The notes below the pieces were generated by a model, which was not told where the DNA came from, made no database searches, and was given only the letters and a program-made list of their open reading frames with translations. Position numbers and translations under genes: made by a program. This document shows positions 59,270-64,000 of a DNA stretch of 64,000 nucleotides, piece by piece. Numbering within the stretch: the stretch's first letter is position 1; the number at the start of each line of letters is the position of its first letter. Origin of the DNA: Cryptosporangium aurantiacum (GTDB lineage: Bacteria; Actinomycetota; Actinomycetes; Mycobacteriales; Cryptosporangiaceae); contig NZ_FRCS01000001.1 of the NCBI RefSeq assembly GCF_900143005.1, forward strand, positions 372,001-436,000. Direction: 5' to 3'.

Positions 59270-60756
59270 CGAGGAACTCCTGGGCGTGCGCCGTTGCCGT
59301 TCGTGGAGCCGTAGCCGTTGGTGGTTCCGTAGCCGTTCGTCGAGGCGTGCCCGTTCGTCGCGTCGTACGCGGGGCCGGTGGCCTCGGCGCTCGCCGCGTC
59401 GTACGCGGGGCCGGACGCCGCGGCGCTGGTCGCGTCGTACGTGGGGCCGGCGGGGGTCCCGAGAGGCGCGCCGTACGCGGTTCCGGCGGGCGGGGCGGTC
59501 GGGGCGCCCGCCGCGACGCCGCTGCCGCCTGCCAGCGTCCACAAGCTGCTGATCCGGGCCCCTGGCCGAGCCGGAAGCACTCGCCATCCGGCGGCTGCGA
59601 GCCGGCCGACGCTCTCCTGGTAGCGGCGGTCGGCTTCGGCCTTCGCTCCGGCCGGTAGCGACGCCCAGGCAGTGGAGTCGATCAGAACGGCGATCGAGGT
59701 GCCACCGGTCCGCGCCGCGGCCAGCCGGGTGCACTCCTCCGGCGTGAGCAGGCCGACGATCGCGACCAGCAGCTGGTCACGCTCGTGCCGCAACCGGTCG
59801 AGGGCCACTCCGAGCGACTGGATCCGGCTCGCCTCGACCTCGGCCAGCAGCCCGAGCGCGATGTTCTCGCCGGTGGGTGGGGTGATCGCCTGGTCGGTGC
59901 CCGCGTCGGTGACCAGGTGTAGATCGAACCCGGCGCGCAGCAGGTGGCAGGTGACGCTCGCGGCCGTGCTCACCGCCCACTCCAGGCTTGACGCCGGACC
60001 GGTGCCCCGGTGGGAGCTGAATCGGGTGTCGAGCAGGACGGTGCCGGTGGACTCCCGTGGCTGCTCCTCACGCCGCACCATCAGCTCGCCGGTGCGGGCG
60101 GTGGATCGCCAGTGCACGCGGCGGTAGTCGTCGCCGTGGCGGTACTCGCGGGTGCTGGCAGCGTCCTCCCCGCGCGCCACCGTCGACCGCGGCTGGCTCC
60201 GGGTATTGCCGGACCGGTCACCCTCCAGCGTGATCGGCGCCAGCGGCGCGACCTGCGGCGTGACGACGATCCGCTCGGTGCGGGTGAACGACCGGGTGAG
60301 CTCGCAGAGGCCGAACGGATCGGACAGGCGGACGGTCAGCGGGCCGATCTCGTAGCGGCCCCGGACGTCCACCCGGATGGGGTACTCGACGCTGCCGGAC
60401 TGCCGGCTGGACAGCCGGTCGAGGACGAACCGCGGCGATTCGCCGAGCGCGGCGGGCAACTGCTCCTCGAGTAGCAGGACGCCGGTCGGGACGCGGGACA
60501 GGTTCTCCAGCCGCAGCGTCACGGCAGCGGGGGAGCCGGCCTGGATGCGGCCCGGACGAACCGAGCGCGTGCACGACAGCCGGTAGCGGGTCCGGGCCAC
60601 CGCGATGACGGCCAGCACCGGGAGCGCGGCGAGAAGACCGGAGACCTGGAGCAGTTCACGTTCGCCGAGTACGAAGGCGGAGACCGCTGCTGCCACCGCG
60701 GCCGCGAGGAAGCTGCGGCCGCGGGTCGTCAACCCTCGTAGGGCGGCCCGGATCAC
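59266..60756 (-). CDS. DUF58 / von Willebrand factor A-like protein with repetitive C-terminus
   Basis: 496 residues. Two N-terminal membrane helices (about 12-50), a DUF58 domain with the signature YRHGDDYRRVHWRSTARTGELMVRREEQPRE, and a vWA-like region. The last 85 residues are low-complexity: a PAGTAYGAP/PAGPTYDAT/SGPAYDA/TGPAYDAT series followed by NGYGTTNGYGSTNGNG. The repeats are not part of normal DUF58 proteins and look recently expanded. GTG 60756 overlaps the MoxR stop by 4 nt. It acts with the MoxR ATPase and transglutaminase, in an undefined envelope process. Confidence 0.88.
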   Translation of the reverse strand: MIRAALRGLTTRGRSFLAAAVAAAVSAFVLGERELLQVSGLLAALPVLAVIAVARTRYRLSCTRSVRPGRIQAGSPAAVTLRLENLSRVPTGVLLLEEQLPAALGESPRFVLDRLSSRQSGSVEYPIRVDVRGRYEIGPLTVRLSDPFGLCELTRSFTRTERIVVTPQVAPLAPITLEGDRSGNTRSQPRSTVARGEDAASTREYRHGDDYRRVHWRSTARTGELMVRREEQPRESTGTVLLDTRFSSHRGTGPASSLEWAVSTAASVTCHLLRAGFDLHLVTDAGTDQAITPPTGENIALGLLAEVEASRIQSLGVALDRLRHERDQLLVAIVGLLTPEECTRLAAARTGGTSIAVLIDSTAWASLPAGAKAEADRRYQESVGRLAAAGWRVLPARPGARISSLWTLAGGSGVAAGAPTAPPAGTAYGAPLGTPAGPTYDATSAAASGPAYDAASAEATGPAYDATNGHASTNGYGTTNGYGSTNGNGARPGVPR

Positions 60757-61757
60757 CGGGGACGACGCCCGCCCCTGGCGTCCGGCACCGGGACCCGGGC
60801 GACGAGGTCAGCCAGGATGACGTCGGCGGTCCGCCGGTTGAAGACGGCCTCTTCGGTCGGGATCAGCCGGTGGGTCAGGACCGGAGCCGCGAGCCGCTGG
60901 ATGTCGTCGGGGAGGACGTAGTCGCGGCCCTCGATCGCCGCGAAGGCGCGCGCGGTGCGCAGCAGCTGCAGGCTGGCTCGCGGGCTGGCGCCCAGCCGCA
61001 GGTCCGGGTTGGTCCGGGTGGCGCTGACCAGGTCGATGACGTACCACTTGACCGGCTCGGCCACGTGGACCCGGCGGACCGTGTCGATCAGCATCCGGAT
61101 CTCGTTGCCGTCGCACACCGCCCGCAGCGCGTTGAGCGGGTCCTCCTCGCCGTGGCCGTCGAGCATCGCCAGCTCGGACCGGCGGTCGGGGTAACCCATC
61201 GCCAGCCGGGCGGTGAACCGGTCGCGCTGCGCCTCGGGCAGCGGGTAGGTGCCCGCCATCTGCGTCGGGTTCTGGGTCGCCACGACCATGAACGGGTTCT
61301 GCAGCGGGTAGGTGATGCCGTCGACCGTGACCTGACGCTCCTCCATACACTCCAGCAGCGCCGACTGCGCGTGCGGCGAGGCACGGTTGATCTCGTCGCC
61401 GACGACCAGGTTCGCGAACACCGGGCCCGGCTTGAACTCGAACGAGCGGTTCTCCGGGTTGTAGATGCTCACCCCGGTGACGTCGGAGGGCAGCAGGTCC
61501 GGGGTGAACTGGATCCGGCGGACCGTGCCGTCGATCGACCGCGCGAGTGCTTTCGCCAGCTTCGTCTTACCGACCCCGGGCACGTCCTCGATGAGGAGGT
61601 GACCCTCGGCAAGGAGAACGGCGACCGCGAGCGTGATCGTCGCGGTCTTTCCCTCGATCACCCGCTCGACGTTGGCCACGATCCGGTCGGTGACGAGCCG
61701 GACGCCGCCGAGATCGGCCGGCGGGCCGTAGTTCTCCAGAGTGCCGTGCGTCGTCAC
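60753..61757 (-). CDS. MoxR-family AAA+ ATPase
   Basis: 334 residues. Walker A LIEDVPGVGKTKLAKALA, Walker B NLVVGDEINRASPHAQSALLECMEE, sensor region VVATQNPTQMAGTYPLPEAQRDRF, and a C-terminal lid. MoxR proteins are chaperone-like ATPases that act on vWA partners, here probably the DUF58 protein encoded next. GTG 61757 with GAGGAAGAGGG upstream. It is followed by two genes with 4-nt overlaps and preceded by a possible small coupled ORF. Confidence 0.93.
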   Translation of the reverse strand: MTTHGTLENYGPPADLGGVRLVTDRIVANVERVIEGKTATITLAVAVLLAEGHLLIEDVPGVGKTKLAKALARSIDGTVRRIQFTPDLLPSDVTGVSIYNPENRSFEFKPGPVFANLVVGDEINRASPHAQSALLECMEERQVTVDGITYPLQNPFMVVATQNPTQMAGTYPLPEAQRDRFTARLAMGYPDRRSELAMLDGHGEEDPLNALRAVCDGNEIRMLIDTVRRVHVAEPVKWYVIDLVSATRTNPDLRLGASPRASLQLLRTARAFAAIEGRDYVLPDDIQRLAAPVLTHRLIPTEEAVFNRRTADVILADLVARVPVPDARGGRRPR

Positions 61758-61930
61758 CGACTGCCCTCTTCCTCGGGCCGCTGCGCCGAGCGGCTCGGAC
61801 GGTACTGCGCGCGCGGATCCGCGGTGCGGCGCAGGATCTGCCTGGGGATGACCAGGGCCGTGACGCTTCCTGGTTTCGGTGCGTTCCCGGGGGAGCGCAG
61901 CGGCCAGTAATCGTCCGGACCCGACGCCAT
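61754..61930 (-). CDS. Possible small protein (58 aa) coupled to moxR
   Basis: The frame ends in a GTGA overlap with moxR, the same junction used by the rest of the operon, and shows about 80% GC at third positions. ATG 61930 has GGAAGA immediately before it; GTG 61996 is an upstream alternative (80 residues). The product (ASGPDDYWPLRSPGNAPKPG...) is Pro/Arg-rich with no recognised domain. It could be a real leader gene or only chance reading. Confidence 0.3.
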   Translation of the reverse strand: MASGPDDYWPLRSPGNAPKPGSVTALVIPRQILRRTADPRAQYRPSRSAQRPEEEGSR

Positions 61931-62045
61931 TCTTCCAGGATCCAGCCCGACCGCCAGGCGATCCGCACTCCCCAGCACTTCCGTACCCTTGTGCACTGTT
62001 TTGTCGCTGCGTTTATTGTCGCCGGCGCGCGCAATGGCGGAGCGC

Positions 62046-62051
62046 TATGAT
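62046..62051 (+). promoter_or_regulatory. Candidate -10 box of the leuS leader transcript
   Basis: TATGAT, one base from the TATAAT consensus, 6 nt before ATG 62058. Transcription would then start at or next to the leader-peptide ATG, giving a leaderless leader. No well-spaced -35 is seen (TTGTCG at 62016 is 24 bp away). Confidence 0.45.
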
Positions 62052-62057
62052 GCCTTC

Positions 62058-62132
62058 ATGGTGAGCGCCGAGGTTCGCATCCCCGTGGCAGACACCTCAG
62101 TCGACGGGCTGCTCCTTATCGTGCCGTGCTGA
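62058..62132 (+). CDS. Candidate leuS leader peptide (24 aa, three consecutive Leu codons)
   Basis: ATG 62058 (followed by GTG) reads 24 codons to TGA 62130-62132 and ends VDGLLLIVPC. The three Leu codons CTG CTC CTT at 62109-62117 are consecutive and differ from each other; CTT is rare in this genome. The peptide ends inside the left arm of an 11-bp inverted repeat and 61 nt before a terminator stem. This is the layout of ribosome-mediated attenuation. No Shine-Dalgarno sequence is visible, consistent with a leaderless start. Confidence 0.6.
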   Translation: MVSAEVRIPVADTSVDGLLLIVPC

Positions 62133-62217
62133 CGCGCGGCGCCCCGTCAAATACTGACGGTGGAGCCCCGAACGCGTTCGGTCAGCACGGCTACCCCTCC
62201 TCCGTGAGGGGTTTTTT
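62123..62217 (+). promoter_or_regulatory. Candidate transcription attenuator of leuS
   Basis: GCCGTGCTGAC (62123-62133) pairs with GTCAGCACGGC (62181-62191). Inside lies CCGTCA/TGACGG (62144-62149 with 62155-62160). Then comes an intrinsic terminator, CCCCTC (62194-62199), a 6-nt loop, GAGGGG (62206-62211) and TTTTTT (62212-62217). An alternative pairing of CGGTGGAG (62158-62165) with CTCCTCCG (62197-62204, one mismatch) would break the terminator. leuS starts 51 nt after the U-run. Confidence 0.65.
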
Positions 62218-62268
62218 CGTGTCTCGAGCCCTCCCTTATCCAGTCTTTTCAGTCCAAGGAACCCCACG

Positions 62269-64000
62269 ATGAGCGAGCAGAACACCGGCTCCGGTGCCCC
62301 GAGCGCCGACGCGCCGGCCCACCGCTACACGGCAACGCTGGCCGCAGCGATCGAGAAGCGCTGGCAGGATCGCTGGGAGGCCGAAGGCACGTTCCACTCG
62401 CCGAATCCCTCCGGCCCGCTGGCCGCCCCGACGCCCGGCTGGCACAACGACGGCGGCCGGCCGATGTTCGTGATGGACATGTTCCCGTACCCGTCCGGCG
62501 CCGGGCTGCACGTCGGGCACCCGCTGGGATACATCGGCACCGACGTCTACGCCCGGTTCCACCGGATGCTGGGGTTCAACGTCCTGCACCCGATGGGCTT
62601 CGACGCGTTCGGCCTGCCCGCGGAGCAGTACGCGGTGCAGACCGGGACGCATCCGCGCAAGACCACCGAGGAGAACATCCAGCGGTATCGGGCGCAGCTG
62701 CGTCGGCTGGGCTTCGGCCACGACAGCCGCAGGCAGCTGGCCACGACCGACGTCACCTACTACCGGTGGACGCAGTGGATCTTCCTGCAGATCTACAACT
62801 CCTGGTACGACGTCGAGGCCGGCAAGGCCCGTCCGATCGAGGAGCTGGAGGCCGAGTTCGAGGCCGGAACGCGACCGGCTCCGACGCCGTGGGCGGAAAT
62901 GTCCCGGATCGAGCAGCGCAAGCTGATCGACAGCCACCGGCTGGCCTACCTGTCCGAGGCACCGGTGAACTGGTGCCCCGGCCTGGGCACGGTGCTGGCC
63001 AACGAGGAGGTCACCGCCGACGGCCGCTCGGAGCGCGGGAACTTCCCGGTCTTCAAGCGGCGGCTGCGTCAGTGGATGATGCGCATCACCGCGTACGCCG
63101 ACCGCCTGACCGACGACCTGGACCAGATCGACTGGCCGGAGTCGATCAAGGCCATGCAGCGCAACTGGATCGGACGCTCGACCGGCGCCTACATCGACTT
63201 CCGAGTCGAGAACACCGCTCCGCACAACGGTCGGCACTCCGCCCCGGCCGCGCCGATCCGGGTGTTCACGACCCGTCCCGACACCGTCTTCGGCGCGACC
63301 TACCTGGTGCTGGCTCCGGAGCACCCGCTGCTGGACGCGATCGTTCCCGACGAGTGGCCGGCCGAGATCCCGTCGTCGTGGACCGGCGGTGCCGCCGATC
63401 CGTCCACCGCGATCGCGGCGTACCAGGCCGCGGCGGCCCAGAAGTCCGATATCGAGCGGTCCGCGGACGCGCGGAAGAAGACCGGCGTGTTCACCGGCGC
63501 CTACGCGATCAACCCGGTCAACGGCGAGCGCGTCCCGGTGTTCGTCGCCGACTACGTGCTGACCGGGTACGGCACCGGCGCGATCATGGCGGTGCCCGGC
63601 CAGGACGAGCGCGACTGGGAGTTCGCCGAGGTCTTCGAGCTGCCGATCATCCGTACCGTGCAGCCGACCGAGGGCTTCGAGGGCAAGGCGTTCACCGGCG
63701 AGGGGCCGGCGATCAACTCCGGGTTCCTGGACGGGCTGGGCGTCGCCGACGCCAAGAAGCGGATCATCGACTGGCTGGTCGACAACGGGCACGGCGAGGC
63801 CACCACCACGTACAAGCTGCGTGACTGGCTGTTCAGCAGGCAGCGGTACTGGGGCGAGCCGTTCCCGGTCCTGTACGACGAGGACGGTCTGCCGGTCGCG
63901 CTGCCGGAGTCGATGCTGCCGGTGGAACTGCCGGAGATCGACGACTACTCGCCGCGGACGTTCGACCCGGACGACGCGGACACCGACCCGGAGCCGCCGC
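62269..64000 (+). CDS. leuS: Leucyl-tRNA synthetase (3' end outside window)
   Basis: 577 codons are present of a protein usually about 950 residues in actinobacteria. Class I motif HVGHPLGY (HIGH site, 81-84) after [31 protein letters not shown], zinc-region-like [16 protein letters not shown], and the CP1 editing domain ([40 protein letters not shown]). The KMSKS motif is beyond the window end. ATG 62269 has AAGGA at 62256-62260. It charges tRNA-Leu in the cytoplasm. Expression is probably tuned by the leader attenuator directly upstream. Confidence 0.97.

Follow-up and report, generated by a model that had tools for sequence, protein, structure and literature searches.

The window analysed here, a 64,000-nt stretch of a 9.58 Mb genome, carries upstream of leuS a short RNA element that is very probably a ribosome-mediated transcription attenuator of this gene. 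The original prediction had described it as an attenuator-like leuS leader with a leaderless Leu peptide and a terminator, and the parts of this arrangement proved to be conserved in relatives.

Parts of the leuS leader

All features lie on the forward strand. A −10-like box, TATGAT (62046..62051), precedes the leader ORF MVSAEVRIPVADTSVDGLLLIVPC (62058..62132), whose start codon ATG (62058-62060) is separated from the box by 6 nt and which comprises 24 codons followed by the stop codon TGA (62130-62132). The ORF contains the Leu codon run CTG-CTC-CTT (62109..62117). Its last codons and stop are overlapped by arm A of a long-range helix, GCCGTGCTGAC (62123..62133), which forms a perfect inverted repeat of 11 bp with arm B, GTCAGCACGGC (62181..62191). 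Arm B is 1 nt away from the stem of an intrinsic terminator (62193..62217), in which ACCCCTC (62193-62199) pairs with GAGGGGT (62206-62212) around the loop CTCCGT (62200-62205) and which ends in T6 (62212-62217). The ATG of leuS (62269) follows 51 nt after the end of T6; the 5′ part of the gene (62269..64000), which continues beyond the window, was recognized by NCBIfam TIGR00396 with 571 bits (cut-off: 548.4). The transcript 5′ of the terminator has a length of ~150 nt and consists largely of the leader ORF and the A:B helix. The box, the 24-codon ORF with its three Leu codons, the 11-bp repeat reaching into the ORF end, and the stem with T6 at 51 nt from leuS had all been named in the original prediction, and a check of the sequence found each of them in place. 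MVSAEVRIPVADTSVDGLLLIVPC is a leader ORF with a codon run cognate to the downstream gene, and a terminator with conserved stem and loop lies between ORF and gene, both as in an attenuator.

The segment from arm A to arm B (62121-62191) folded at −42.6 kcal/mol (z −4.92), and none of 200 dinucleotide shuffles was as low. For the terminator the folding energy was −12.0 kcal/mol (z −2.81; 1 of 200 dinucleotide shuffles as low) and for the leader as a whole z was −2.92. A covariance model (R2) built from 33 leuS leaders, all from outside the window's family, scored the element with 68.1 bits (E 1e-15), while the next best site in the 64 kb obtained 13.9 bits.

Leader peptide, promoter box and Leu codons

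Unless stated otherwise, counts refer to 132 elements, those of relatives together with the window's; a reverse-strand shadow in locus L169 was left out, and the element of L161, which is cut at a contig end and read out of register, is among those counted. Also excluded from the rows were seven weakly matching loci whose leaders are rich in Ile, L002 as a duplicate of the window, and identical sequences.

A TANNNT box is common to the relatives' elements. In 131 of the 132 elements it precedes the start codon by 6–8 nt (by 6 or 7 nt in 129 of them); elsewhere in the same stretches a box at 6–7 nt occurs at 1.6% of positions. The start codon was ATG in 83 and GTG in 48 elements. The spacing of the box fits leaderless transcription, and by homology with leuL2 of S. 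lividans we infer a leaderless start for the window's leader as well. The original prediction had regarded a leaderless leader peptide as unusual, which does not hold for actinobacteria: in S. lividans, leuL1, leuL2, trpL1, trpL2, ilvL, metL and thrL are described as leaderless (PMC8079986).

Homologous ORFs were present in the relatives. Their peptides measured 11–13 residues in 111 of 131 cases; peptides of 24–26 residues occurred only in the window and in two of the three other examined species of its genus. At least three Leu codons in a run were found in 111 of 131 peptides, two in 19 and one in 1. The third codon of the run was CTT in 120 of the 132 elements. By comparison, CTT made up 10 of 2560 Leu codons in the leuS coding stretches of 51 named loci that bear the element, and in the first 577 codons of the window's leuS all 36 Leu codons are CTG. 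Leu codons 1 and 2 of the run covary at their third bases; mostly one of them is CTG and the other CTC or CTT. This would let the run sense two tRNA-Leu species, given the anticodon assignment that we take to apply. The endings of the peptides vary (PR in 84 and PC in 29 of 131). In L009 (Amycolatopsis rifamycinica; around position 1347), additional codons separate the Leu run from the end of the leader (MNTARLLLFFKGLGLPR), and a CTT is still found near arm A.

The A:B helix is conserved as RNA

The original prediction had proposed an alignment of the leuS upstream regions of actinobacteria and a helix whose left arm a ribosome could mask. In the alignment the Leu run was conserved and the A:B stem covaried, and the pairing of 62123-62133 with 62181-62191 provides a stem that overlaps the ORF and is open to masking. 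Among 45 aligned sequences, 94.9% of the A:B cells paired, and the whole structure reached 94.2% pairing, compared with 40.7–52.3% when it was slid along the alignment. Both sides had changed in 37 cells, a count that 0 of 500 shuffles reached, and in six pairs, which 6 of 500 shuffles reached. One measure spoke against the structure: further pair types did not exceed shuffles in these 45 sequences (449 of 500 as high).

The strongest covarying pair (25-51) was C-G in 95 and T-A in 36 of 131 distinct sequences, with zero exceptions. On a LeuS tree of 94 sequences it changed eight times on each side and eight times jointly, as expected if each switch was compensated. The first seven A:B pairs were all standard in 128 of the 132 elements. 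The change at 25-51 also swaps the encoded residue, Arg or Cys, and eight leaders (L012, L030, L106, L125, L142, L143, L157 and L165) end before arm A, yet 9 or 10 of 10 A:B pairs are still formed in them. Since pairing is kept through residue changes and early stops, we conclude that it is the RNA that is constrained and not the peptide; where the peptide ends is apparently dictated by the pairing of the RNA and not by the peptide.

A mutual-information scan for a further helix over 131 sequences found no run of stacked pairs beyond the known ones. The top 16 pairs included A:B, its extension 31-45, the terminator and the third positions of the first two Leu codons.

Distribution among actinobacteria

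We searched 80 named leuS loci, the best 80 of 585 confirmed relatives of the query, with a second covariance model (R1) built from 45 leaders including the window's. Among these best 80 of 585, R1 matched upstream of leuS in 51 (E up to 1e-4), 35 of which had also served to build R1. The 51 include Plantactinospora, Actinoplanes, Streptomyces, Kitasatospora, Blastococcus, Geodermatophilus, Intrasporangium, Amycolatopsis and Kibdelosporangium. The remaining 29 of the best 80 had no R1 match, among them 10 of 10 Nocardia loci as well as Frankia gtarii, Tsukamurella, Actinomycetospora and Acidimicrobiia bins. In the window's own family the element was found before leuS in five of five genomes.

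In a survey of the class, 75 of 148 genomes had a model match at E up to 0.01, giving 79 matches overall, and at least 60 of these precede leuS: 50 lie 44–224 nt upstream of a LeuS match, and a further 8 (by tblastn) and 2 are also followed by LeuS. The other class matches are 7 weak ones with Ile-rich leaders and 12 others, some at contig ends. No model match was obtained in 66 of the 125 class genomes that had a LeuS match (E up to 1e-30), a number to be read with the stricter filters of Infernal in mind, which lose weak ones. In a sample of the phylum, 9 of 149 genomes matched, one of them outside the class (G415, with the leader MAAALLLSPPR before leuS).

The element stood before a LeuS close to the window's in 33 of 63 genomes with strong matches, and before a distant, shorter LeuS in 17 of 62. 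It is kept or gained across two kinds of LeuS, a longer and a shorter one.

The weak matches in L167, L168, L170, L171, L172, L174 and L175, all of one family, have short leaders with Leu and Ile codons (e.g. ..GLLIIGRRAG), as do weak matches in further genomes of this family. Three of these seven cases were tested, and the downstream sequence was a fragment resembling citramalate synthase (TIGR00977; E about 1e-32, partial and below the full-length cut-off). The Ile-rich leaders are possibly a relative of the leuS switch that senses Ile; our literature search found nothing on this leader type.

Proposed attenuation and the antiterminator question

In the predicted mechanism, transcription would start at or next to the leader ATG, and a ribosome would load on the 5′ end and translate behind RNA polymerase. 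With ample charged tRNA-Leu, the ribosome would pass the Leu run, stop inside arm A and leave; A:B would then pair, the downstream hairpin would form undisturbed and transcription would end at T6. With charged tRNA-Leu scarce, the ribosome is expected to wait within the Leu run, chiefly at the rare CTT. There it would mask the first 7 nt of arm A, so that arm B is free and may interfere with the terminator, and leuS would be transcribed. Pairing of free B with the terminator loop is a candidate for this interference.

We calculated the reach of the waiting ribosome with a footprint of 26 nt centred on the codon, a value taken from PMC13236596. On Leu codons 1, 2 and 3 it would mask 1, 4 and 7 of the 11 nt of arm A, and all of them from the stop codon. 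By this arithmetic CTT sits where waiting masks most of A and spares B. Two points of this arithmetic count against the attenuator: from Leu codon 1 no more than 1 nt of A would be masked, and from the stop codon A would be masked too, so that termination can resume only through release of the ribosome.

When the RNA downstream of A was folded without arm D (GAGGGG), B paired with the terminator loop (CACGG/CCGTG; the hairpin alone at −5.2 kcal/mol). With A hidden and arm D present, the terminator still formed, so an effect of free B would have to be kinetic. In the 45 sequences, register 1 of a B:loop pairing paired in 85.9% of cells, but 468 of 500 shuffles matched that; register 2 paired in 72.9%, with 19 of 500 shuffles reaching this pairing and 6 of 500 its covariation score. 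On the LeuS tree the changes were not linked (pair 51-69: 8 and 17 changes, 22 joint). For the 111 short loops of 125 usable rows, the mean B:loop energy was −5.83, compared with −5.98 for the same loops shuffled and −3.80 for random letters. Swapping loops among sequences gave −6.16, and 200 of 200 swaps were as low as or lower than the real combinations. A pairing of the Leu codons with arm D (CTCCTT/GAGGGG), judged by eye, was also rejected; the Streptomyces run CTTCTGCTT fits it poorly.

The antiterminator of the original prediction leaves the attenuator as such in place and lets the waiting ribosome free CGGTGGAG (62158-62165) to pair with CTCCTCCG (62197-62204). Both segments exist and are complementary, and GGTGGAG also occurs in the spacer of L003, from the same genus; the pairing itself is not general. 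CGGTGGAG falls within the variable A–B spacer, which ranges from 5 to 67 nt over the 132 elements, and the congener L005, with a spacer of 7 nt, has no comparable segment. The region 62159-62207 folded no better than shuffles (z 0.56), and a longer stretch without arm D paired B with the loop and not CGGTGGAG with CTCCTCCG. We regard this antiterminator as distinctly unlikely. Neither this pairing, nor B:loop, nor the mutual-information scan yielded an antiterminator excluding the terminator with clear comparative support.

The terminator loop and other explanations

Although it is unpaired in the terminator, the loop is conserved (CTGTGC in 33, CTGCGT in 31, CTGCGC in 7 and CTGTGT in 4 of 132), which calls for an explanation. 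In trp and his leaders, the first hairpin acts to pause RNA polymerase. A:B might likewise be mainly a pause hairpin, holding RNA polymerase 11–14 nt downstream at a G-Y-G of the loop until the ribosome catches up. In this proposal, to which we give a modest chance, timing would matter for control no less than the competition between stems, and the conservation of the unpaired loop would be accounted for. Marks of hairpin-stabilised pausing are a duplex 11–12 nt upstream of the paused RNA end and Y-1 G+1 (PMC12288461). A GYG with its Y 11–15 nt past the base of A:B was present in 109 of 132 elements, compared with a mean of 46 and a maximum of 61 for 500 sets of shuffled loops, a count that ignores the relatedness of the elements. 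However, the G-10 of the elemental pause signal is unmatched, with stem Cs at that place, and loops such as CTGAGC, CTGAGT and the long ones of Pseudonocardiaceae fit GYG poorly. The window's loop CTCCGT with the following G gives GYG only with Y at 14 nt.

Two explanations without a waiting ribosome were also weighed. In the first, there is no regulation, and leuS follows a small leaderless gene that encodes a protein and has a terminator of its own; such an arrangement would have the same appearance. We consider it very improbable: the peptide endings vary, eight leaders stop before arm A yet keep A:B, and the Leu run suits a synthetase and so argues against a plain small-protein gene, at least 60 of the 79 class matches preceding leuS. 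Direct sensing of uncharged tRNA-Leu by a T-box or other riboswitch, which the original prediction had already held to be less likely, can practically be dismissed. T-boxes regulate ileS in some actinobacteria (PMC1262725), but a search of 60000-64000 with Rfam 15, T-box model included, gave zero matches at E up to 5, and the leader ORF and A:B take up most of the transcript.

The terminator varies in some relatives. In L003 (reverse strand, 2180-2368) its loop measures 78 nt rather than 6 with the stem arms intact, and this enlarged loop may weaken the terminator. Nine Pseudonocardiaceae loci (L008, L011, L015, L016, L018, L020, L022, L030 and L042) have loops of 13–16 nt, several of them with a small GCC..GGC stem of their own, and their T tract is often poorer.

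Relation to known attenuators and significance

The window's element belongs to an already published type, the leuS attenuators of Streptomyces. For the region before leuS in S. avermitilis and S. coelicolor, classical attenuators had been predicted by Seliverstov et al. in 2005 (PMC1262725). Compared by description, these share a leader ORF with Leu codons and a terminator hairpin with the window, which lies in another actinobacterial family, and they include a predicted antiterminator. In S. lividans TK24, leuL2 before leuS (MRAVRLLLSEPR) was reported to be leaderless by RNA-seq and to have a terminator (PMC8079986); as in the window, a leaderless Leu-Leu-Leu peptide is followed by a hairpin and a U stretch before leuS. 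The peptides of our Streptomyces loci are identical or nearly identical to that of leuL2 and stand in one alignment with the window. The leuL2 leader was reported from RNA-seq and its peptide has 12 residues, whereas the window's predicted leader has 24 codons; compared with most relatives, the window has a longer peptide and a longer A–B spacer.

The ilvB1NC leader of M. tuberculosis likewise codes for a peptide with regulatory codons and has an intrinsic terminator; it is described as ribosome-mediated, and mutation of the codons of the ilvB1 leader abolished induction (PMC13236596). By description it differs in its gene and in sensing Leu, Val and Ile via LVVI codons. Counting against such regulation, codon substitutions that left regulation unaffected are cited for actinobacterial ilvB and leuA (PMC1262725). 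The LEU element before leuA also has a Leu-rich leader peptide, leaderless in S. lividans (PMC1262725, PMC8079986). As far as the description in PMC1262725 goes, it involves the Shine-Dalgarno box in a pseudoknot and lacks a typical terminator; the window's element is set apart from it by its gene, leuS, and by its terminator.

Our analysis adds the breadth of the type, the A:B covariation, the CTT bias and the pause-signal-like terminator loop. In the part of the literature covered, we found no published description of the wider distribution, the A:B covariation or the CTT bias. A comparative study of synthetase attenuators by Lopatovskaya et al. in 2010, cited in PMC4833913, may contain more leuS cases, so we do not claim the wider distribution as unpublished.

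A prediction for two species from 2005 and one RNA-seq entry from 2021 are thereby extended to a bounded RNA element with comparative support, which occurs across many families of actinobacteria and in one case beyond the class, and which is a candidate Rfam entry. Exact mutants of A, B, CTT and the loop would make leaderless ribosome-mediated attenuation testable. We tentatively propose, as a possibility well short of even chances, that this widespread actinobacterial leuS RNA uses the stop-codon helix both to keep the terminator free and as a pause hairpin, 11–14 nt before the conserved YG of the loop, with CTT fixed at a place from which a waiting ribosome would cover most of arm A. If this is true, a single short RNA would set the timing of leaderless translation, pausing and termination, and might manage without a distinct antiterminator stem.
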